Shown here: in pieces, positions 4,996 through 14,661 of the stretch
How the letters are laid out: every line of letters starts with the position of its first letter
How positions within the stretch are numbered: position 1 is the first letter of the stretch
Assembly: GCA_002887195.1 (NCBI GenBank)
Contig: PJAB01001317.1
Span: forward strand, 1 to 15,418
Direction of reading: 5' to 3'
Length of the DNA: 15,418 bases
From: Chrysochromulina parva
Lineage: Eukaryota; Haptophyta; Prymnesiales; Chrysochromulinaceae
The notes under the pieces: model-generated
Database searches by the model: none
Told to the model about the DNA's origin: nothing
Seen by the model: the letters and a program-made list of their open reading frames with translations, nothing else
Program-made: the position numbers and the translations under genes

Positions 4996-5322
4996 CACGA
5001 CAGCCTGTGAGCTGTGTCTGACACAGTGACAAAGACAAATAGTGCGAATCAAGTCTCTTGAACCGGCATGTAAATCGTCTGGGGACGTCGAGTATTTTAA
5101 CAGCCAATTCACACATCGGGAGCGAGACGCGCAAACCTTGGCCGTCCTGGGACAAAAAGGGTGCGCTGCCGCCCACCCGCCGCGTCATGTCCAGCGTGTC
5201 CGTCGTCGTCCCTTGGCCTTCGGTCCGCTGACCGATACACTTTTCCCGTCGCGCAGGAGCGTTCCGATCAGTTCCGAACGAGCGTCATCCGATCTCCGAG
5301 AGGCTCCGCGGCGAACTCGAGC
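4996..5322. other. Intergenic region / 5' end of the GT61-like gene
   Basis: No complete gene is supported here. The stretch holds the HET-LRR 3' end and the leader of the next gene. A good acceptor-like sequence, CTTTTCCCGTCGCGCAG (5240-5256), lies in it, and the downstream frame is open from there. A short upstream exon encoding a signal anchor may therefore exist. One ATG at 5188 (MSSVSVVVPWPSVR, then stop) could be part of it, but the implied 35-nt intron would be unusually short. Confidence 0.35.
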
Positions 5323-6870
5323 ATGGTTCCCGCAAACCTCTGGACAGAGACATCACCGAAATGCGTCCTTTGGGGACGGGGACTTCCTGACGCCATGGCC
5401 AATTTCAGTTGTCCTACTTCCAGGCATACGAATTTCCATTGGCGTTTTGGCATCCCGAACTGTGCAGCTGCAAATGTAACCATTTCCAATCGAGGTGGCA
5501 TCCAAGGCTTGGAGGTGCAGCTAGCGGCGGCGCCTCGCACTGAGGCAGATGCAGCAGCGTTGCGGCTTGTCGTTGAATGCGGCCTTTGGGACTCTTACTG
5601 GGGTGTCAAAGGTTTTCCGTTTGACCCTGGGCTACCCACTCGGCTTCAAACAGCAACAGGCAACGTACCCAAATTTGTCTCGTGGCCGGGGCAGCGCTCT
5701 CAGCAGAGCAAACGGTGGTCGTCGCTCTCGCGACTGCTCTCAGTCTCACCAATAGCAACCCCGCGGCGGGTTGTGCACCATGCTGGCGTGGCTCTGTTCA
5801 TGTATCGGCACACTTGGGTGGGCCACTTCGGTCACAACCTGCTACACAACCTTGCCTGCATCATCGAGACTTTTGACGAGTGGCGAATGTTGCATCTATT
5901 GCCAAAGCGCACCGCCACCTACGTAGCACTCGACCTCGGTGCCCATGGTTCCGAGGAGCTTCCGATGAAAATGCTGAGCATGCTTTTCCACCGCGTGCTC
6001 TCAGCGAGCCAACTGCCCACTGATGAAGAGCACGTATTCGAGCACGCACTCCTCGGCCAGGCCCACCGGCACATGCTCCATATGTCGGTGTATGCCACGC
6101 CGTCGCTCGCGCAACGCCGCCTGTATCGTTCGATGGGAGCCTTGCTCGAGCTGAGCTTCTGCCGTGGGGCGCGCGCCATCTGCACCGCGCCGGCGTCAGT
6201 TGATCCGAAGCAGAAAATGCCTGGGCTCTCGTGGCTGATCGCGGCCGGACGAGGTGTGGAGCGGTGCGCGCAGACGAACCACAGCACCAACATCTCTGCC
6301 GATCCCTCGTTGCCGCCAGTGCGAGCGCTGGTGGCGGTGCGATGCTCAGCAGCAGATGTGACTGCCAAACGCTGCCGCAACGAGGACCCGAACGGAAGTA
6401 AGGGTCGCCGCGCGCTTCTCAACGAGGACGAGGTGATCGCTGCGCTGATCACGGTCAGTGCGGGCACGTGCGTCTTCACGGCAAACCCAGGCACTTTGCC
6501 GCTGGCGCAGCAAGTAATGCTCTTCCGATCCATGGATGTGTTAGTGGCTGCGAGCGGCTCGGCGCTCATCGGAATGTTCTTTATGCGACCGCGGGCAGTT
6601 GTCGTCGAGCTTCTCAGTTTCCAGGGAACCTCAGTGCCTGACACAACGTGGCACGAGCTGGGCATATCCCTCGGGCTCACGTACAAAGTTCTGCACGAAC
6701 AGCACTGGTTTGCGCGCACTGCTTTGCCGTGGGACCGTCGCGAAGCTATCCATGTTGAGCCCAGCGAGCTCGTCGACCTTGTGCGGAGCAGCTTGCATAC
6801 CGCCTATGGGGACCCGAGCGAGGTCGCCCCGGCTTTGATGGCGTCCAATCGCCGAAGGGTCCGGTCGTGA
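5323..6870 (+). CDS. GT61/DUF563-like glycosyltransferase, N-terminus uncertain
   Basis: The frame runs 515 codons from the first in-frame ATG. It shows the two hallmarks of the GT61 (DUF563) family, which includes EOGT and plant xylan/N-glycan xylosyl- and arabinosyltransferases. One is an aromatic/His stretch, GHFGHNLLHNLACIIETFDEW (about 167-187), matching the family's 'HNfyH...lp.l'. The other is a C-terminal block with LLNEDEVIAALI (about 365-376), LPLAQQVMLFRSMDVLVAASGSALIGMFF (about 392-420) and VVELL (427-431), matching '..fQi.lf..advvvg.HGAgl.N.lFm.pg..viEi'. Such enzymes transfer sugars to proteins or glycans in the ER/Golgi lumen. In place of the usual HGAG there is SGSA (411-414), so the donor-site chemistry may differ. 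No signal anchor follows ATG 5323, and the frame is open upstream to about 5161, so an upstream exon is likely. The family call is fairly sure; donor and acceptor are unknown. Confidence 0.78.
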   Translation: MVPANLWTETSPKCVLWGRGLPDAMANFSCPTSRHTNFHWRFGIPNCAAANVTISNRGGIQGLEVQLAAAPRTEADAAALRLVVECGLWDSYWGVKGFPFDPGLPTRLQTATGNVPKFVSWPGQRSQQSKRWSSLSRLLSVSPIATPRRVVHHAGVALFMYRHTWVGHFGHNLLHNLACIIETFDEWRMLHLLPKRTATYVALDLGAHGSEELPMKMLSMLFHRVLSASQLPTDEEHVFEHALLGQAHRHMLHMSVYATPSLAQRRLYRSMGALLELSFCRGARAICTAPASVDPKQKMPGLSWLIAAGRGVERCAQTNHSTNISADPSLPPVRALVAVRCSAADVTAKRCRNEDPNGSKGRRALLNEDEVIAALITVSAGTCVFTANPGTLPLAQQVMLFRSMDVLVAASGSALIGMFFMRPRAVVVELLSFQGTSVPDTTWHELGISLGLTYKVLHEQHWFARTALPWDRREAIHVEPSELVDLVRSSLHTAYGDPSEVAPALMASNRRRVRS

Positions 6871-7137: not shown

Positions 7138-10100
7138 ATGGTACACCTGCTCGAACGGGAAGGACCCATGTCGCCGAGCAGGTGGTCGGGCGCCGACCTG
7201 CCATGGAGTCTGGCTGCCATCGGCCCACAGGTGGTCACACAAGTTGGACCGCGAGTGGACCTCGAGCTCGCGTACGCAGAAGACATGCTCGAAGAGGCGC
7301 CAGCACCGCAACCCGTAGAGGCGCCAGCACCGCACCCTGACGCTGCGCCCTACGCAGACAATGATGCTGCTCCTCCGATCATCGAGGCCGGGGACAGCAT
7401 GTGGCAACAAATCGCAGGAAGCGCTCGTGTACACGTGAAGTTGAAGGGTGTTCACGTGCACACGTGCTCTCCGGGGGGGGCGCAGCAGCATTCGGAAGGT
7501 GTGATGCCCCCGCGGGTAGTCCACTTCGTTGAGAACGCGGCCACGGTACCGTGCGAGTCCGGCGTGGCACCCCGCATCTTCGAGGTCGACCCGATGCATG
7601 TCACGGTCGAGACGGACTCAGAGGACGACGCCACCGCAGACGCCTCCGCGATGCCACGGATGCGGGTTTCCGAGGATCTGCTCGACAAGCTCTCGCAGAG
7701 CCACGCCTCCGCGCTTACCGCCTTCGGCGACCTCATCGACAATGCACGCGAGAGCGAGGCGACGATGATGCGCATCGACATTCGCAAGCACCCACGGCCA
7801 GCCGAGGCGCGTGCGGGGATGGGAGGCGCTCACGACGGCGTGTCTCGGCCGCAGGCTTCGATCTCGCATGGAACCGTCTCTGGCCGGATGCGCACGACTC
7901 TGGCCGACCTCATGCTCGTCCTCGAGGACGACGGGCATGGCATGAGCGAGGGCATCGTGCGCATGGGCCTTGGCTCGATCGGCCACACCTCGAAGAGCCT
8001 GAGCGGCGGCAGTGGCTTGCACTACGGCTTCGGCTCCAAGACGGCACTGTCCAAGCTGGCCGAGTTCTGCCTGATCTTCACACGCGCGGAAGGAGGCCAC
8101 CGGACCGTCGCGCTCCTCTCGTCGAGCTTCTCGATCGCGCGCGGCATGGGCGAGATGCTCGTGCCCATCTGCACATGGGAACGCACCGCTGACGAGCTAC
8201 TGCGCGAGACGGACGAGAAGACCTCGCCGCTCACCCTCAAGCAACGGCGCGCCTCTCGCGACGAGCTGCTGCGCTGCGCTCACCTGCCCTTTGCGAGCGA
8301 GGCGGAGTTGCTCGACGTCTTCAAGCAGGGCCTCTTCGCTGATGGTGGCACCGGTACGTGTCTCGTCTGCTGGTCCCTCAAACCCGTGCTCACGGTGCGT
8401 GTTCACGGCGCTCGTGGCGACGCAAGCGACATCGTCATCCGCCCGAATGCGTCCGACCCGCCGCCGATCACGTCGCTCCGCGCGTACTGCGAGCTGCTCT
8501 ACCTACACGCTCCGAGCGCGACACCGCCTCTTGTGCCCGTGCTCAAGATCGTGCTTCGAGGGCGCGAGGTCCGCTACCGCAACTGGGACGCCTACCTGTG
8601 TGATCTGCGCCACACGGTCACATTGCCCGACCCGGCGGAAAACGAGGTCGAGGCGCAGTACGACATAGTCGACGGGCCGGGCGCTGCGGCGCTCCGGCGC
8701 GAGGCTAAGAAGGTGAGCCAGCAGGCGCGCGCCACCTTGACCATCGGCTACGCGCAGACACTCGATGACGTGTACAACACGCTTTCGTGGCCCAGTGGCT
8801 CTCTCAAAGGCGTGAGTGCCACGGTGATGTCGGAGCGCAAGAGAGCGGTTACGGAGGAGCAGACAGGCTTCGCGTTCTATCACAACGGGCGACTGATTCG
8901 CATCCTCGAGAAGCTCGTGCTAGCGGCCTCTAATTCGATTGCCACCTCGACGCGGCGCATTACGCACTACGGCCAAGGGCTCACTGGCTACGTCTCCGAG
9001 AACTATCTGGCGCCCGAGCACAACAAGGCGGTGTACAAGCGAGCTGAGCTCTTCGCGAGCCTCAAGAACGCCGTCAAGCGATCCTGCCAGAAACACCTGA
9101 GGGAGAAGGTGGCGCCACGCCTCGACGCCATCAAAAGCCTTCCTCTGGCCGCCGCCGCAGTCGCCGCCACCGCCGCGGCGGCGGAGGCCTCGGGCTCTGG
9201 TTCGAGCCTGGACGCCGAGGTCAGGCCGCTTCCATGGGCTGCGACGCCCAAGCACAAGGGCCACCCCAGAAAGTCGCTCGCCGACGAGTGCCAGCGCGAG
9301 GCACGTATGCGGCCTAAGGATATTAGCGACACCACGGTCGGCAGGGTGATCGCTGTCTCAGCTGGACGGTACAAGCTGCGCATGGACGACATGTTACTCT
9401 CAGCCCGCAGCTACCGCGCGAATGAGCTCGTGGAGACCGTCTTCGATCCGAATGAGCTCGATCGCTCGATGAGCCCAGCGCCCGCCTCCCTCTCGGGCTG
9501 CTACGTCGAGGTTTGGTGGCTGTCCGAGGGCGATCAGCACGACGACGCCCACGACGACGCCGAGGCAGCCCACGACGACTGGTGGCGTGCCACGTTGCGC
9601 CATCGACCCGATTTGGGCGAGAGCGGCTGGTTCGATCTCGAGTATGAGGTGGACCAGACGTGCGAAGAGGTGTTCATAGGCATCTCGCCCGGCACCCGGC
9701 TCATGGCGAGCGTGGCCTTCCGGCGCGACGGCGAGAAGCTCGTCTGGAAATTCCCGAACGTGACGGATAAGGATATGTTCAACCTCCGGCGGGTGGATGC
9801 GGCGGCGGATGAGCTGCGGCGTACCATGCTGCAGCGCATGCTACGGCCCGAGTGTGCGAGCGCCGTGTTGGTGGGCGACACGGCTGAGATGCCACGGCCA
9901 CCGGCTTCAGCTGCGCCGGCCTCTGTGGAACCCGCCTCGTTGGAACAGCCAGACGCTGTGGCCGCCGACGTAGCGCCCTCTCGTGCTGCTGAGGCCGCGG
10001 CTTCGTCAAGCGCCATGCGCTCAACAGCAAGGCAGCGGGCCGCGGCTTCGTCAAGCGCAATGCGCTCAATAGCAGGGCAGCGGAATGCGGCGCCGGCGGT

Positions 10101-13100
10101 TGGCGCTGTTGCTGGTGTTGGTGCGGCCGCTGTGGCAAGCACAGAGCAGCTGCGGCGACGGCAGGCGACTGCCACCCCGGTGCACTCATCTGCCGCGGAT
10201 GTGGCCAGGGCGGCCGCGGCGGCCGAGGGGCTCGAGCTGGTGCTGTCCTCGAAGAGTCAGACTGGCTTCAAAGGCGTGTGGAAGAGGAAGGGTGCCAAGT
10301 TCGACGTGTATGAGGTCCAGGTCACTGAGAATGGCAAGGGGCGCTCAATGGGCACCTTTGCGACGCCGGAGGAGGCGGCCTTGTGCTACGCGAGGTACAT
10401 TGAGGCGGAGCGCCAGTCAACCGCCCAGTGGCCGGCTGCACAAGAGCAAGCGCTCTTTCCGGGATTCGTCAACCCGGGAGTCCGATACACGAAAACGAGC
10501 GTCGCAGCCTCCGCCGCAGCAGTACTGCCGCCAGCACCGCCAGCTCCGCCAGCGCCGGCGCGAGCGCCGCTGCCAGCGCCGACATCCCATCGGCGGACGC
10601 CGAAGTCGTTGTCGTTGACTCAGCATGAAAGGAGTTCGACAGCGGCTGAGGAGGCGGAGGAGGCAGAGGAGGCGGAAGAGGCGGAGGAGGCGGAGGCACT
10701 CGCGGCGCCCTCGGCAAGCGGCGGTGGCGGCGGCCGTGGCGGCGGTGCTGCTGGTCGGCATTGCAGGTCGCCGACGGTGATGCTGGGCGCCAAGATCGAC
10801 GCAACGTCCTTTGGCACGGTGGGGCGCCGTAATGAGCGCCCGTCAGAACGCTCGGCCGGTCCAGCGACCCTCTCTGCCGCCACCGAGGCTACCTCCGAGC
10901 AGCCTCCCGAGCAGCCTCTTGCCATCGGGGCGCGGGTCAAGGCGTGCTTTCACGCGTACGAGAAGCCCCGGAAAAATAAAGGTTGGGGGGCTGGCCATTA
11001 CTACACAGGCGCAGTGGTTGCAGTCAATAGCGACGGCACATATGGGGTAAAGTACGATGATGGCGATGTCGAGGACCGCGTCGAGCGGCGGCACATCCAG
11101 CAGATCCCCTTGTCCTCACAGCCAGCGCCACCGACGGCCGTGAGCGGTACCGGGAGACGAGCAACTCTCCGAGGTCGTGCACGGCGCCCCGAACACTCCG
11201 TTGGAGTACGCCCCGCGGAGTGCGAGGGCCGTGTGCATGCGATGCTGGAGGAGATTGACGAGATTGACGAGATTAATGAGGCCCATGTGCATGCGATGCT
11301 GGAGGAGGCTCTCGCGCCAGCTCTCGCGCAGGCGACGCGCTTGCGCGAGAGAGCAGGGACGACGACGGCGGACGAGTCGGCTGATTGGCATGAGCGAGCG
11401 CTCGCATGGCGCAAGCAGGCGGCCGCGGGACTCGCGCGTCTGGTGAGCGAGCCACTTTTGGCCAAGAGCGCGGGCGCGCCGAGTAGAGCGCGCGCGGCGG
11501 AGGGCGCGGGCGCGGCGCACGAGGGCTCGGCGGCGGAGGCGAGCGAAGCGATGGAGATGGACGAGGTGGACAGAATGGTCGAGGCGTCGTCCCGGGCAAA
11601 GACCTCCTCCAACGTAGCATGCGGCCGCCCTCAGCTCGCGCAGCTCAAGCAAGCATCATCTCCCACTGCTACTCCCGGGCAAAGGGCCGACGAGGAGGGA
11701 AAGGAGGGCAAGGAGGGCGAGGAGGGCGAGGAGGGCAAGGAGGGCAAGGAGGACGAGGGGCTAGAGGTGAAGGTCGAGGAGGGAGATTCCGAGATGGAGG
11801 TGGAGGAGGTCGATGAGGACGAAGACGAAGACGAGGACGCTTCGGCCGATGCGATTGGATCTGACGCGGCGCGTGGACGGCTGGCGACCATCACAAAGGA
11901 GGAGGAGGACGAGGAGGATCCTGACGCGCTCTTGGAGAAACTGGAGCAAATGAACGACGAGGAAGTGACGCTGCTGATGGAGGAGGACGCAGGCGCCGAG
12001 GCGGCGGTCGAGAGTACTGGTGCAGAGAGGGCCAGGGCAGCGGCGACAGCCGAGACCAGAGCCCAGGACGACGCCGAGACCAGAGCCCAGGACGACGCCG
12101 AGCCCTTCTCTCATGCGAGTCTCGCCCGTACTCTGCGCGAGAGGATGGCGCAGCTCGGCGGGATTCAGTCCAAGCTGGCCTCGCGTCTCGGCTGCACCAA
12201 ACAGGCGCTCTCGGGCTGGCTCCACGGCAAGTGCCCCCGCGGTCAAGAGGCGCGCCTCGACGCGATCGTTAAGGCATGGCTCGATCGTGTTGAGCAGGAT
12301 CCGACTCAGATCCAATCTCGTCAGATCCAATCTCGTCAGATCCAATCTCGTGATGAGCAGGATCTGACTCGGGAGGCTGTGGAAGAGCCTGCTCCGGCGT
12401 TGGATGAGGAGCTAACGGCCGCGTTGGCCGCGGCTGAGCGCAAAGAGGAGGCTGCGAGGAGGTTGCTCACCGAGGCCGCAGCAACTCGGGCGCAGGTGGC
12501 GGGCGCGATGCAGCAGCAGCAGGCAGCGCGCACGGCCAAGCCAGCCCGAGGCCGATCGTCCCCAGCTCGAGGCAAGGACGAGTTCAAGGACGACCGAACC
12601 GCCGTGTTGGAAACCGGATCGGCCACTGCCGACGAGAGCGCTCATGACGGCGCTCAGGTCAGGCCCTGCGAGGTTGAGAGTGCGGCGGCCGGAAGCAGCT
12701 CACCGCTCAAGCGTCCTAGGGAGTGTCTCGCCGCGACCAGCGCCACCGCCGCCGCCGCGACCGCCGCCGTGACCGCCGCAACCGCGACCGCCGCCGCCCC
12801 CCCACCACCGCAAAGGACGCAGTGGGGGGCGATGGGCCGCATGCACAAAGTGCCTGAGCGGCTACTTCCCACTATGGATCCCCGCAAGAAACCCAAGCAT
12901 TGGAAGCCACCGGCGGCCGTGCCGCCGCCGCCCATGGCCGCCGCACCGCCGCCACCGGCCACGCCACCGCTCGGGACAGCGCCGCCGTTGTCGTCCCGAG
13001 CGTCGTCCCAAGCGGATCGCGATGCGGCCGAGTGGCGGGCCCCTTATGAAGCTCACGCCAAGCTCATGTACGCGGAGCTCATTGTAGGGGGCCTCGTGCG

Positions 13101-14661
13101 CGTGTGGTGGACGAAGACGATGGCGGGCCATCTCGAGCGGTTCCAGTACGGCACCGTCACTGTCGTGGGGCCAGCATCATTGCCACAGCGCAAGCGTGAT
13201 CCTCTCAACTGCACCTTCGAGGTCACTTACCCCGACCAGCCGTGTGGCGCCGAGGGAGGCAAGTTCTTGCACGACCTCGAGCAGGTACACGTGGAGCGGG
13301 TGCCTGAAGGCGCTTACGATCACTACTTCCGGTCTGCTCAGCACGACGCGCTGTCGCACGCTGCATCAGAGCATGCAACCGCACCGGAGCGCAATAGCGA
13401 GCGCCCACCTCGCAAGGCCGCCGTCGCGGGCGCTGCTCGAGGGGCCGCCGCTCTAGGGGCCGCCGCCGCTGAGGCACAGGCCGTCTTAAGCGTGGGCGCA
13501 CGCGTGCTCGCTCGCCATTTGGCGTCCTATTCCAAGGGGGCACGTCGCCTAAAGTCGGGCGCCAACGCGTGGTGGCGTGGCACGATCTTGGCCGTTGGCT
13601 CGGGCGGTGCCACGTACAACGTCGAGTACGATGATGATGGCGTGAAGGAGGACGTGCTTGCCAAATTTGTGCAGCCGCTGGACGAGGAGGGTGATGAGGA
13701 CGAGGACGAGGACGAGGACGAAGACGAAGACGAGGACGACGAGGACGAGGACGACGAGGAGCCCAAGCCGCCGGAGCCGCCCCACGAGGGCTCGCTGCGC
13801 TACGACATCTTCCGTGCCCTGTGCGACGGCCACTCGACGCGAGCGGCCATCATTGACTACGTGGACCAGCACGGTAAGTCGTCCACACGCGGCAAGATTA
13901 CTCACAATCACAGTCTGCTGCAGGCCGACGTGGTCACGGCACTAGGCAAGGAGACGAAGCACGGCCGTCCGCCCCTCTGGTGGCAGGATGCGGACAAGTA
14001 CGGCCTCACTGCGGAAGGCGAGGACATCAAGGACGGCATGGAGCATGGAGAGGAGGCACGAGCGGAGGAGGAGGCCGGGGCGGTGAAGGAGGAGGCTGAG
14101 GCTGAGGAGGAGCCGGCCCCCAGGCTGTCGTGTGGAGGAGGAGTTGTGAAGGAGGAGCCGGCGGCCCCCGGGCTGTGGTGTGGGTACTGCGCCCGCACGT
14201 TCGGTAACCATGGCGCGCTCGCGAGGCATGTGGGGACGTGCAAGCAGCGGCCGGCGGAGTATGGACAGAATGAGGATGAGGACGAGGACGACGACGTCGA
14301 GGACGAACACGAACACGAAGACGAGGACGAGGACGACGAGGAGGAGCCCAAGCCGCCGGAGCCGCCCCACGAGGGCTCGCTGCGCTACGACATCTTCCGC
14401 GCCCTGTGCGACGGCCACTCGACGCGAGCGGCCATCATTGACTACGTGGACCAGCACGGTAAGTCGTCCACACGCGGCAAGATTACTCACGATCACAGTC
14501 TGCTGCAGGCCGACGTGGTCACGGCACTAGGCAAGGAGACGAATCACGGCCGTCCGCCCCTCTGGTGGCAGGATGCAGACAAGTACGGCCTCACTGCGGA
14601 AGGCGAGGTCGTGAGAGCCAAAGAGAGAGCAGCACGCAAGCGCCCCATAGCGTCGCTGTAA
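7138..14661 (+). CDS. Giant MORC-type ATPase / Tudor-like / AP2 / HTH / winged-helix chromatin protein
   Basis: One uninterrupted frame of 2507 codons starts at an ATG in good context (ACCATGG). In order it holds: a GHKL ATPase with MORC-type S5 half (about 178-655), a Tudor/Agenet-like module (787-852), an AP2 domain (1036-1095), a Tudor-like module (1263-1323), a long Lys/Glu/Asp tract (1518-1630), an XRE-like HTH (1660-1716), a Pro/Ala-rich linker, two more Tudor-like modules (about 1981-2058 and 2117-2181), a putative winged helix (2219-2295), a C2HC finger (2348-2368) and a second winged helix (2414-2490). Acidic runs precede both winged helices. MORC proteins compact chromatin and silence genes by ATP-driven clamping on DNA, Tudor-like modules read histone marks, and AP2 and HTH domains bind DNA. 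A nuclear, sequence-guided chromatin factor is inferred. One continuous frame argues against several genes, although frame-preserving introns cannot be excluded. Confidence 0.9.
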   Translation: MVHLLEREGPMSPSRWSGADLPWSLAAIGPQVVTQVGPRVDLELAYAEDMLEEAPAPQPVEAPAPHPDAAPYADNDAAPPIIEAGDSMWQQIAGSARVHVKLKGVHVHTCSPGGAQQHSEGVMPPRVVHFVENAATVPCESGVAPRIFEVDPMHVTVETDSEDDATADASAMPRMRVSEDLLDKLSQSHASALTAFGDLIDNARESEATMMRIDIRKHPRPAEARAGMGGAHDGVSRPQASISHGTVSGRMRTTLADLMLVLEDDGHGMSEGIVRMGLGSIGHTSKSLSGGSGLHYGFGSKTALSKLAEFCLIFTRAEGGHRTVALLSSSFSIARGMGEMLVPICTWERTADELLRETDEKTSPLTLKQRRASRDELLRCAHLPFASEAELLDVFKQGLFADGGTGTCLVCWSLKPVLTVRVHGARGDASDIVIRPNASDPPPITSLRAYCELLYLHAPSATPPLVPVLKIVLRGREVRYRNWDAYLCDLRHTVTLPDPAENEVEAQYDIVDGPGAAALRREAKKVSQQARATLTIGYAQTLDDVYNTLSWPSGSLKGVSATVMSERKRAVTEEQTGFAFYHNGRLIRILEKLVLAASNSIATSTRRITHYGQGLTGYVSENYLAPEHNKAVYKRAELFASLKNAVKRSCQKHLREKVAPRLDAIKSLPLAAAAVAATAAAAEASGSGSSLDAEVRPLPWAATPKHKGHPRKSLADECQREARMRPKDISDTTVGRVIAVSAGRYKLRMDDMLLSARSYRANELVETVFDPNELDRSMSPAPASLSGCYVEVWWLSEGDQHDDAHDDAEAAHDDWWRATLRHRPDLGESGWFDLEYEVDQTCEEVFIGISPGTRLMASVAFRRDGEKLVWKFPNVTDKDMFNLRRVDAAADELRRTMLQRMLRPECASAVLVGDTAEMPRPPASAAPASVEPASLEQPDAVAADVAPSRAAEAAASSSAMRSTARQRAAASSSAMRSIAGQRNAAPAVGAVAGVGAAAVASTEQLRRRQATATPVHSSAADVARAAAAAEGLELVLSSKSQTGFKGVWKRKGAKFDVYEVQVTENGKGRSMGTFATPEEAALCYARYIEAERQSTAQWPAAQEQALFPGFVNPGVRYTKTSVAASAAAVLPPAPPAPPAPARAPLPAPTSHRRTPKSLSLTQHERSSTAAEEAEEAEEAEEAEEAEALAAPSASGGGGGRGGGAAGRHCRSPTVMLGAKIDATSFGTVGRRNERPSERSAGPATLSAATEATSEQPPEQPLAIGARVKACFHAYEKPRKNKGWGAGHYYTGAVVAVNSDGTYGVKYDDGDVEDRVERRHIQQIPLSSQPAPPTAVSGTGRRATLRGRARRPEHSVGVRPAECEGRVHAMLEEIDEIDEINEAHVHAMLEEALAPALAQATRLRERAGTTTADESADWHERALAWRKQAAAGLARLVSEPLLAKSAGAPSRARAAEGAGAAHEGSAAEASEAMEMDEVDRMVEASSRAKTSSNVACGRPQLAQLKQASSPTATPGQRADEEGKEGKEGEEGEEGKEGKEDEGLEVKVEEGDSEMEVEEVDEDEDEDEDASADAIGSDAARGRLATITKEEEDEEDPDALLEKLEQMNDEEVTLLMEEDAGAEAAVESTGAERARAAATAETRAQDDAETRAQDDAEPFSHASLARTLRERMAQLGGIQSKLASRLGCTKQALSGWLHGKCPRGQEARLDAIVKAWLDRVEQDPTQIQSRQIQSRQIQSRDEQDLTREAVEEPAPALDEELTAALAAAERKEEAARRLLTEAAATRAQVAGAMQQQQAARTAKPARGRSSPARGKDEFKDDRTAVLETGSATADESAHDGAQVRPCEVESAAAGSSSPLKRPRECLAATSATAAAATAAVTAATATAAAPPPPQRTQWGAMGRMHKVPERLLPTMDPRKKPKHWKPPAAVPPPPMAAAPPPPATPPLGTAPPLSSRASSQADRDAAEWRAPYEAHAKLMYAELIVGGLVRVWWTKTMAGHLERFQYGTVTVVGPASLPQRKRDPLNCTFEVTYPDQPCGAEGGKFLHDLEQVHVERVPEGAYDHYFRSAQHDALSHAASEHATAPERNSERPPRKAAVAGAARGAAALGAAAAEAQAVLSVGARVLARHLASYSKGARRLKSGANAWWRGTILAVGSGGATYNVEYDDDGVKEDVLAKFVQPLDEEGDEDEDEDEDEDEDEDDEDEDDEEPKPPEPPHEGSLRYDIFRALCDGHSTRAAIIDYVDQHGKSSTRGKITHNHSLLQADVVTALGKETKHGRPPLWWQDADKYGLTAEGEDIKDGMEHGEEARAEEEAGAVKEEAEAEEEPAPRLSCGGGVVKEEPAAPGLWCGYCARTFGNHGALARHVGTCKQRPAEYGQNEDEDEDDDVEDEHEHEDEDEDDEEEPKPPEPPHEGSLRYDIFRALCDGHSTRAAIIDYVDQHGKSSTRGKITHDHSLLQADVVTALGKETNHGRPPLWWQDADKYGLTAEGEVVRAKERAARKRPIASL
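7669..9102 (+). other. MORC-type GHKL ATPase and S5 module of the giant protein
   Basis: Four ATP-binding motifs are visible. Motif I is AFGDLIDNARES (N202), motif II is DDGHGM (264-269), motif III/lid is HTSKS...GLHYGFGSK (283-301), and motif IV is GTGTCLVCW (404-412). The MORC-specific second half follows with FYHNGRLIR (580-588) and GYVSENYLAPEHNKAVY (617-633), like the 'vYyNnRLI' and 'PTHNKQdF' blocks of animal and plant MORCs. The position normally held by the catalytic Glu of motif I (AELIDN) is Asp198. Confidence 0.88.
9496..9693 (+). other. Tudor/Agenet-like module 1 of the giant protein
   Basis: GCYVEVWWLSEGD opens the segment and DDWWRATLRHRPDLGESGWFDLEYE continues it. This is the pattern of Royal-family folds: a charged 'V.V.W' strand, a 'WW.A.v' strand, then an aromatic/acidic 'Y..D' strand. 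A run of DDAHDDAEAAHDD is inserted in the first loop. It probably reads a modified tail; the ligand is unknown. Confidence 0.55.
9994..10083 (+). repeat. 45-bp coding tandem duplication
   Basis: Two adjacent 45-bp units (9994-10038 and 10039-10083) differ at three bases and encode AAASSSAMRSTARQR and AAASSSAMRSIAGQR. They lie in the linker before the AP2 domain, and the period of exactly 15 codons keeps the frame. Confidence 0.9.
10243..10422 (+). other. AP2 DNA-binding domain of the giant protein
   Basis: SKSQTGFKGVWKRKGAKFDV, then YEVQVTENGKGRSMGTFAT and PEEAALCYARYIEA, match the AP2/ERF order 'S.y.GV..r..kw.A.I......lGtF.t.EeAA.AYD.a'. The three-strand sheet plus helix binds DNA in plants, apicomplexans and phage homing enzymes. 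Other algal genomes carry scattered AP2 domains in non-ERF proteins. Confidence 0.85.
10924..11106 (+). other. Tudor-like module 2 of the giant protein
   Basis: IGARVKACFHAYEKPRKNKG, then YYTGAVVAVNSDGTYGVKYDDGDVEDRVERRHI, has the 'YtG.V..v..dGtY.V.YdDGd.E..V....i' signature of single Tudor-like domains. It sits between the AP2 domain and the acidic tract. Confidence 0.75.
11233..11307 (+). repeat. Duplicated VHAMLEE coding motif with IDE repeats
   Basis: A 21-bp unit beginning GTGCATGCGATGCTGG occurs at 11233-11253 and 11287-11307. The sequence between encodes IDEIDEINEA from a GAGATTGAC-type repeat. The segment is likely helical and short enough to be a coiled-coil or binding motif. Confidence 0.75.
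11689..12027 (+). other. Charged Lys/Glu/Asp low-complexity tract of the giant protein
   Basis: The coding DNA is a GGAGGGCAAGGAGGGCGAGG-type purine repeat, then GAC/GAG/GAA runs. The protein reads KEGKEGEEGEEGKEGKEDEG, followed by a long acidic stretch ending in DPDALLEKLEQMNDEEVTLL, which has a heptad-like look. It is probably disordered with a short coiled coil. It adds strand-asymmetric purine content to the gene. Confidence 0.8.
12052..12099 (+). repeat. 24-bp coding tandem duplication (ETRAQDDA x2)
   Basis: Two identical adjacent 24-bp units (12052-12075, 12076-12099) encode ETRAQDDA twice, just before the HTH domain. They are identical at third positions too, so the duplication is young. 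Confidence 0.95.
12115..12285 (+). other. XRE/lambda-repressor-like helix-turn-helix of the giant protein
   Basis: GGIQSKLASRLGCTKQALSG, then WLHGKCPRGQEARLDAIVKAWL, has the 'tq.kLA..lGvs...iS.Wl.Gk..p....l..ia..l' pattern of Cro/C1-type HTH domains. It would bind DNA. A eukaryotic MBF1- or homeobox-like relative is the alternative reading. Confidence 0.65.
12307..12351 (+). repeat. 15-bp coding tandem repeat, three exact copies (QIQSR)
   Basis: CAGATCCAATCTCGT is repeated three times without a change (12307-12321, 12322-12336, 12337-12351). A partial relative lies on each side: GATCCGACTCAGATCC before and GATCTGACTCG after. It encodes QIQSR three times directly after the HTH. Confidence 0.97.
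13078..13311 (+). other. Tudor/BAH-like module 3 of the giant protein (tentative)
   Basis: LIVGGLVRVWWTKTMAGHLE, then FQYGTVTVV and CTFEVTYPD, with a closing FLHDLEQVHVERV, resembles Royal-family 'G..V.VwW......y.GtV......f.V.Yd' strands. It has a longer loop (PASLPQRKRDPLN) than a plain Tudor domain. Confidence 0.45.
13486..13680 (+). other. Tudor-like module 4 of the giant protein
   Basis: LSVGARVLARHLASYSKGAR, then AWWRGTILAVGSGGATYNVEYDDDGVKEDV, shows 'vGarV.A......ww.GtI..v....tY.V.YdDd..e..v'. It parallels module 2 closely and may be a diverged duplicate. It runs straight into the first acidic tract. Confidence 0.72.
13756..14023 (+). repeat. 268-bp internal duplication, copy 1, with putative winged helix
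   Basis: This copy matches 14341-14608 with four differences by eye. It encodes a Pro-rich lead (EPKPPEPPHEG), then SLRYDIFRALCDGHSTRAAI and a stretch ending LWWQDADKYGLTAEGE (2219-2295). The helix-helix-hairpin order and the 'Y.LT..Ge' ending resemble winged-helix domains of the MarR/PadR kind. The fold is inferred. A strong donor-like GGTAAGT occurs inside (GT at 13874). Confidence 0.9.
14179..14241 (+). other. C2HC zinc finger between the two winged helices
   Basis: C2348, C2351, H2364 and C2368 give Cx2Cx12Hx3C, with the Phe and Leu spacing of a classical finger (ARTFGNHGALARH). The last ligand is Cys rather than His. It lies alone between the duplicated segments. Confidence 0.75.
14341..14608 (+). 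repeat. 268-bp internal duplication, copy 2, with putative winged helix
   Basis: The copy lies 585 bases (195 codons) after copy 1 and keeps the frame. Differences include Asn/Asp in ITH(N/D)HS and Lys/Asn in KET(K/N)HG, plus two silent changes. An Asp/Glu run precedes both copies, which could have mediated unequal exchange. The GGTAAGT is kept (GT at 14459). The protein ends 17 codons later. Confidence 0.92.

Follow-up and report, generated by a model that had tools for sequence, protein, structure and literature searches.

How do MORC ATPases find their sites on chromatin? Human MORC2 captures circular DNA and binds it without sequence preference (PMC11879086; here and below, citations refer to excerpts of the papers), and apicomplexan MORC depends on AP2 partners: in Toxoplasma gondii MORC reaches promoters, together with HDAC3, through AP2XII-1 and AP2XI-2 (PMC10781626), and in Plasmodium falciparum AP2-P and MORC mark contact anchors (PMC12221972). 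The question is raised by a single frame of the haptophyte alga Chrysochromulina parva, at positions 7138 to 14661 (+ strand) of contig PJAB01001317.1; the window analysed is the whole stretch of 15,418 nucleotides. The frame encodes P0001, a predicted protein of 2507 residues in which a GHKL-S5 MORC core stands in line with predicted AP2, Tudor/Agenet and XRE-like helix-turn-helix (HTH) domains. P0001 is probably a divergent MORC chromatin ATPase whose targeting has moved into the same chain.

A MORC core and candidate targeting domains in one frame

Both halves of the core, GHKL and S5, scored above the Pfam cut-offs, HATPase_c_3 by a small margin when the whole protein was scanned (25.8 versus 25 bits; 30.4 bits on the fragment) and Morc6_S5 in the fragment scan (3.4e-11), bearing out the MORC ATPase proposed by a first-pass annotation of this DNA. 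The GHKL (Bergerat) N, G1 and G2 motifs of the MORC family are all present, with Asp198 at the position of the catalytic glutamate, Asn202, DDGHGM and HYGFG, as are the EHNK lysine and the stretch GFAFYHNGRLI (at 577), which fits the S5 motif GhXhhpXXRhl of the MORC family (PMC2292703). That P0001 also has an AP2 domain, as proposed earlier, was confirmed despite the lack of a match to the Pfam AP2 model, with either the whole protein or the fragment. A profile built on 32 rows of the modules found significantly matched AP2 domains only, including those of WRI1 (1.4e-7) and AtERF1 (4.5e-7), and the module is modelled as the three strands and helix of the AP2/ERF fold, with a predicted local distance difference test score (pLDDT, given by block) of about 75-90, and of 64 at the helix end. 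The features of the window, all on the + strand, are as follows.

7138..14661, +, single stop-free coding frame of P0001, 2507 residues (ATG at 7138, stop at 14661, no internal stop)
7651..9117, +, MORC GHKL-S5 ATPase core, residues 172-660 (Pfam, PDB searches, motif survey, alignment)
9280..9741, +, module X, residues 715-868, two beta-strand clusters, Tudor/SH3-like (BLASTP to P0007 covering 172-868; model)
10210..10413, +, AP2 module, residues 1025-1092 (matches in the same genome, module profile, model)
10909..11109, +, Tudor (Tudor_5/PTM_DIR17-like), residues 1258-1324 (Pfam)
12112..12297, +, XRE-type HTH, residues 1659-1720 (Pfam below cut-off, profile, model)
12400..12531, +, long helix and possible coiled coil, residues 1755-1798 (model, pLDDT 79-92)
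12712..14028, +, stretch homologous to the free-standing P0008, residues about 1859-2297 (sequence match)
13039..13302, +, SH3-like barrel, residues 1968-2055 (model; matches P0008)
13480..13683, +, Agenet domain, residues 2115-2182 (Pfam)
13771..14028, +, winged-helix-like copy 1, residues 2212-2297 (model, matches in the same genome)
14164..14247, +, C2H2/C2HC-like zinc finger, residues 2343-2370 (Pfam fragment, E 0.007, below cut-off)
14356..14613, +, winged-helix-like copy 2, residues 2407-2492 (5 of 255 nucleotides differ from copy 1)

The other domains named by the first-pass annotation were recovered in part. For the Tudor-like readers, the Royal family is represented by Agenet, above its cut-off of 27 bits on the whole protein (6.7e-7, 30.1 bits), and by PTM_DIR17_Tudor, above its cut-off on the fragment (27.6 versus 27.2 bits); but Tudor_5 fell just under its cut-off on the whole protein (3.3e-7, 30.4 versus 31 bits), the Agenet fragment scored below (25.2 bits), and the Tudor was modelled with pLDDT under 50. 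The XRE-like HTH matched the 434 repressor (1.4e-4) through a four-row profile and is helical in the model, but its first two helices are merged, and HTH_31 (1.5e-4) and HTH_3 (4.2e-4) both stayed below the Pfam cut-off on the fragment. The zinc finger is a single C2H2/C2HC-like motif that remained below the cut-off. The twin winged helices are two near-identical copies of a three-helix pattern (pLDDT 64-93 in copy 1 and 54-89 in copy 2), but the wing is poorly modelled (52-62 in copy 1), and the copies had no Pfam match in the fragment scan and no useful PDB profile match. An acidic stretch and winged-helix sequence are repeated in a duplication of 300 nucleotides (13687-13986 and 14272-14571; 94% identical, spacing 585); the copy may have been doubled recently or homogenised, and an assembly artefact is possible.

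Five elements were added to the earlier description: module X, the long helix, a second MORC, the free-standing P0008 and a Glu-to-Asp change in the core. The strands of module X are modelled with pLDDT mostly 62-89, and the module had no Pfam match in the fragment scan. For the C-terminal dimerisation coiled coil of most MORCs, the candidate counterpart in P0001 is the predicted long helix, whose coiled-coil role is putative.

Relatives, shuffled domains and the extent of the gene

The second MORC of the genome, P0007 (1141 residues; G000:C439), consists of GHKL-S5, module X, Tudor, AP2 and a SAM-like tail. By BLASTP it shares 26% identity with P0001 across residues 172-868 (E 5e-46) and 61% in the AP2, and phmmer matched it to MORC2 at 1.8e-20. 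Its architecture is retained in the metagenome proteins P0011, P0012 and P0013 (98, 93 and 86%), so that the link between AP2 and Tudor recurs in this second MORC and three relatives of it. Like P0001, the four have GHKL-S5, module X, one Tudor and one AP2; unlike P0001, they are 1090-1145 residues long, have the order Tudor-AP2, end in a SAM-like tail, and gave no HTH, above-cut-off Agenet, winged helix or zinc finger in the scans. P0014-P0019, also from metagenomes (761-957 residues), share with P0001 the GHKL-S5 core and, by BLASTP with the module of P0007, module X. Most have a SAM-like tail (SAM_NCD1 below cut-off in P0015-P0017, a similar tail in others of the set by alignment); unlike P0001, they had no AP2 match to P0001 or P0007 by BLASTP and no Tudor_5 match.

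The relatives also bear on the catalytic residue. Where Ascaris MORC2 reads AELVDN, and human MORC2 also has the usual active-site glutamate (E35), the window reads GDLIDN. The aspartate, as GDLxDN, is shared by all 9 relatives whose N motif is intact (P0001, P0007 and P0011-P0017, among which P0007 and P0011-P0013 are near-copies); P0018, P0019 and P0021 lack the N-motif stretch and hence fall outside this count. Since both hallmark domains of MORCs are present, and the hallmarks as defined in the excerpt of PMC5651269 are GHKL and S5 and not the active-site glutamate, we read the aspartate as a variant of this set of relatives. It could also mark an ATP-gated, hydrolysis-poor clamp, one that would bind ATP, remain shut on the DNA and serve as a lasting architectural roadblock instead of a compaction motor that cycles. 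The E35A substitution makes the ATPase of MORC2 almost undetectable (PMC11879086), and the asparagine, the G1 and G2 glycines, the S5 motif and the HNK/HSK lysine are all retained. We regard such a clamp as somewhat doubtful, as aspartate can still serve as a base and its conservation fits an adapted active enzyme equally well as a slow one.

The C-terminal third of P0001 has a free-standing relative in the same genome, P0008 (555 residues; G000:C831). The alignment starts at residue about 1859 of P0001, and the two proteins share the SH3-like barrel (65% identity) and the Agenet-winged-helix part (53%) in the same order (residues about 1968-2297 of P0001); P0008 differs in having no MORC core, one winged-helix copy and no zinc-finger match. 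Because of this match, P0001 looks like a MORC joined to a reader/winged-helix protein. It is also conceivable that two transcription units are read as one here, the first a MORC gene that stops around residue 1860, the second a P0008-like reader/winged-helix gene in the same frame, as P0008 stands alone in a 556-codon open frame, matches P0001 only at residues about 1859-2297 and at the second winged helix, and introns exist in this genome, namely in the neighbouring MYB gene. This is very unlikely in our view, since no stop lies between the two parts, and the in-frame, stop-less joining of two genes would be a coincidence.

The longest stop-free run in the frame is 2512 codons; in 100 order-2 Markov sequences such runs averaged 356 codons and reached at most 545. 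The periodicity of codon-position guanine-cytosine content extends across most of the frame, being weakest in Ala/Pro/Ser-rich linkers near residues 901-1000, 1101-1250 and 1800-1950. The first-pass annotation had named frame-keeping introns as a threat to the single protein; GT-AG pairs that would keep the frame number 5, no excess over the 10.3 +/- 4.6 obtained by shuffling codons or the 14 of the antisense strand, but introns do occur in the MYB neighbour. Among 18 matches to PF00118 in the genome, 7 are unbroken over at least 487 of 490 positions; the remaining 11 are pieces, 2 of them at contig ends, and those on C1293 and C1184 fall into different frames, the effect expected of introns. 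As predicted from the DNA, the P0001 frame is essentially one coding unit, in which short in-frame linker introns are possible; the claim of a single uninterrupted frame was upheld.

Two other genes lie upstream in the window. A three-repeat MYB gene (about 281-2030, +) has two GT-AG introns, 522-852 (331 nucleotides) and 1070-1201 (132 nucleotides), and a frame with a GT61-type glycosyltransferase domain (5161-6870, +) is directly upstream of the MORC gene.

The domains of P0001 are found in many other proteins of the genome. The AP2 module has at least 136 matches, itself included, many of them in tandem arrays. Outside P0001 the HTH has matches in the frames P0022 and P0023, by eye dynamin-like and SNF2/PHD-like, the latter with three HTH units; the winged helix matches P0009 at 42% and, through P0008 and more weakly, P0025. 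Domain shuffling among chromatin-type proteins seems general in this genome. The fusion might then be incidental, with AP2, Tudor, HTH and winged-helix domains widespread in unrelated proteins, MORC not site-specific and AP2 perhaps a protein-protein or non-specific DNA module. The AP2 module occurs in P0010 of the same genome with an Agenet and a RING-like stretch below cut-off, and in the metagenome protein P0003 with OTU and SAP, as this explanation would have it. We nevertheless find it unlikely, since AP2 and Tudor are together in both MORCs found in the genome and are kept in P0011-P0013, and the partnership of MORC with AP2 is documented in Apicomplexa (PMC12221972, PMC10781626). One earlier claim, that P0001 is a self-contained machine, does change. 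The MORC core and the reader domains in one frame and the recurring AP2-Tudor link stand, but self-containment is weakened, because the C-terminal third has the free-standing relative P0008 and the AP2, HTH and winged-helix modules occur in other frames of the genome.

Long tandem AP2 arrays are found on G000 C536, C1888, C1315 and others. P0023 (L057:1172-5941, +) has, by eye, a SNF2-type helicase, PHD-like fingers and three XRE-type HTH units. P0025 (L059:468-6656, +) is a frame of 2063 codons with AP2-like, CXXC-like, chromodomain-like and winged-helix-like units, also by eye, its winged-helix region being a weak match.

The AP2 module of the sister MORC

Comparison of P0012 and P0013 suggests that the AP2 module can be exchanged. 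Their identities are 454/470 in the core, 156/161 in module X, 37/45 in residues 661-719, 55/56 in the Tudor, 94/94 in residues 776-893, 19/19 just before the AP2, 33/52 in the AP2, 59/73 in residues 966-1062 and 72/75 in the SAM part. The AP2, which matches P0007 residues 913-965, has the lowest identity of all segments, linkers included, and the 113 residues preceding it are identical. The two modules are no more alike than random module pairs of the genome (63.3% identity; mean of pairs 65.5%, standard deviation 5.7, with 71% of pairs at least as alike), the pairs, 903 in all, being drawn from 43 of the at least 136 matches, those that a sequence pattern picked up in the loci retrieved. A Fisher test of the AP2 against its neighbours (Tudor, residues 776-893, pre-AP2 and SAM, leaving out core, X, 661-719 and 966-1062) gave p 1e-12, for residues that are not independent.

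On the simplest reading, a different copy from the pool took the place of the AP2 and left its upstream neighbours as they were. A chimeric metagenome assembly or very fast local evolution could mimic such an exchange; as P0013 comprises 24 member sequences on 4 contigs (P0012, 4 on 1), a one-off error in P0013 is less likely. The exchange is not visible in the other relatives (AP2 of P0007 versus P0011, 53/53; versus P0012, 52/53), and it is seen in the sister gene, not in P0001 itself. The AP2 modules of P0001 and P0007 are 63.3% identical in the pool comparison, and in the pool examined each has a better match elsewhere (72% for P0001; 75% for P0007, orthologs aside). As neither is the nearest match of the other, each MORC may have recruited or converted its AP2 independently.

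We tentatively propose, as an idea that could well be wrong, that the partnership of AP2 and MORC has been hard-wired into one polypeptide in two paralogs, the AP2 being a swappable cassette that re-aims a constant clamping engine from a genome-wide pool. Restriction enzymes swap their target-recognition domains in an analogous way.

A proposed clamp, address and mark-reader

We argue that upon ATP binding P0001 would dimerise through its GHKL heads, perhaps with a second contact via the long helix, and would close on DNA as human MORC2 and Caenorhabditis elegans MORC-1 do; MORC2 acts as a clamp, compacting DNA as it hydrolyses ATP (PMC12216690). The AP2, the HTH and possibly the winged helices would choose DNA sites, and the Tudor/Agenet barrels would choose nucleosomes by their histone marks. 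The built-in AP2 would do the work of the separate AP2 proteins through which apicomplexan MORC reaches promoters, and the likely outcome would be local compaction or loop anchoring, most often repression. With a large pool supplying AP2 modules, and an apparent exchange of one of them in the sister MORC, new addresses could be acquired rapidly on an unchanged engine. P0001 might instead be an activator or loop-anchor that holds distant loci together with either outcome for expression, as proposed for P. falciparum AP2-P/MORC, which is found at silent and active loci as well as contact anchors (PMC12221972). We consider this rather improbable, since MORC is described as repressive in T. gondii (PMC10781626) and in other eukaryotes (PMC12221972; PMC12216690).

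Several points weigh against P0001 being a self-targeting MORC ATPase. The S5 half of its model is poor (pLDDT mostly 28-71), and the S5 of P0007 is below the Pfam cut-off. With aspartate for the catalytic glutamate, hydrolysis may be slow or absent. The order of modules differs between P0001 (X-AP2-Tudor) and P0007 (X-Tudor-AP2), and with the AP2 so common, its presence in a MORC might be incidental. Among the matches listed, none was a full-length relative of P0001. Since the MYB neighbour has introns, frame-keeping introns in the linkers are possible, and P0001 is a protein predicted from DNA alone, for which we infer a single transcript.

Human MORC2, MORC3 and MORC4 have the arrangement GHKL-S5-CW, whereas P0001 had no CW match in the Pfam scans of the whole protein or the fragment; MORC2 has Glu35 where P0001 has aspartate, and it binds DNA independently of sequence (PMC11879086), whereas the P0001 chain includes predicted DNA-binding-type domains. 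In T. gondii and P. falciparum, as in P0001, MORC is tied to AP2 DNA-binding domains. There, MORC and ApiAP2 are separate proteins in a complex, whereas the AP2 of P0001 is in the same chain, the likeness being one of domain type; PfMORC also differs in carrying a Kelch propeller (PMC12221972). The first-pass annotation knew of no MORC with its own AP2, and no MORC-AP2 fusion was found among the matches listed in the open-licence literature searched on MORC. Fusion as such is already known, however, since MORCs fused to the mark-binding domains bromo, BAM, CW and TAM/MBD were described in 2008 (PMC2292703).

The best-supported reading is that P0001 unites clamp, address and mark-reader. In it, what is a MORC-AP2 complex in Apicomplexa would be physically fused, giving a 'Rosetta stone' link, and a MORC with its own AP2, HTH-like and histone-reader-like domains would make targeting testable in one molecule. 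The shared aspartate in place of the catalytic glutamate offers a natural test of whether MORCs need fast hydrolysis. If true, the AP2 exchange in the sister MORC would be a direct view of silencing or looping programmes being rewired in evolution.
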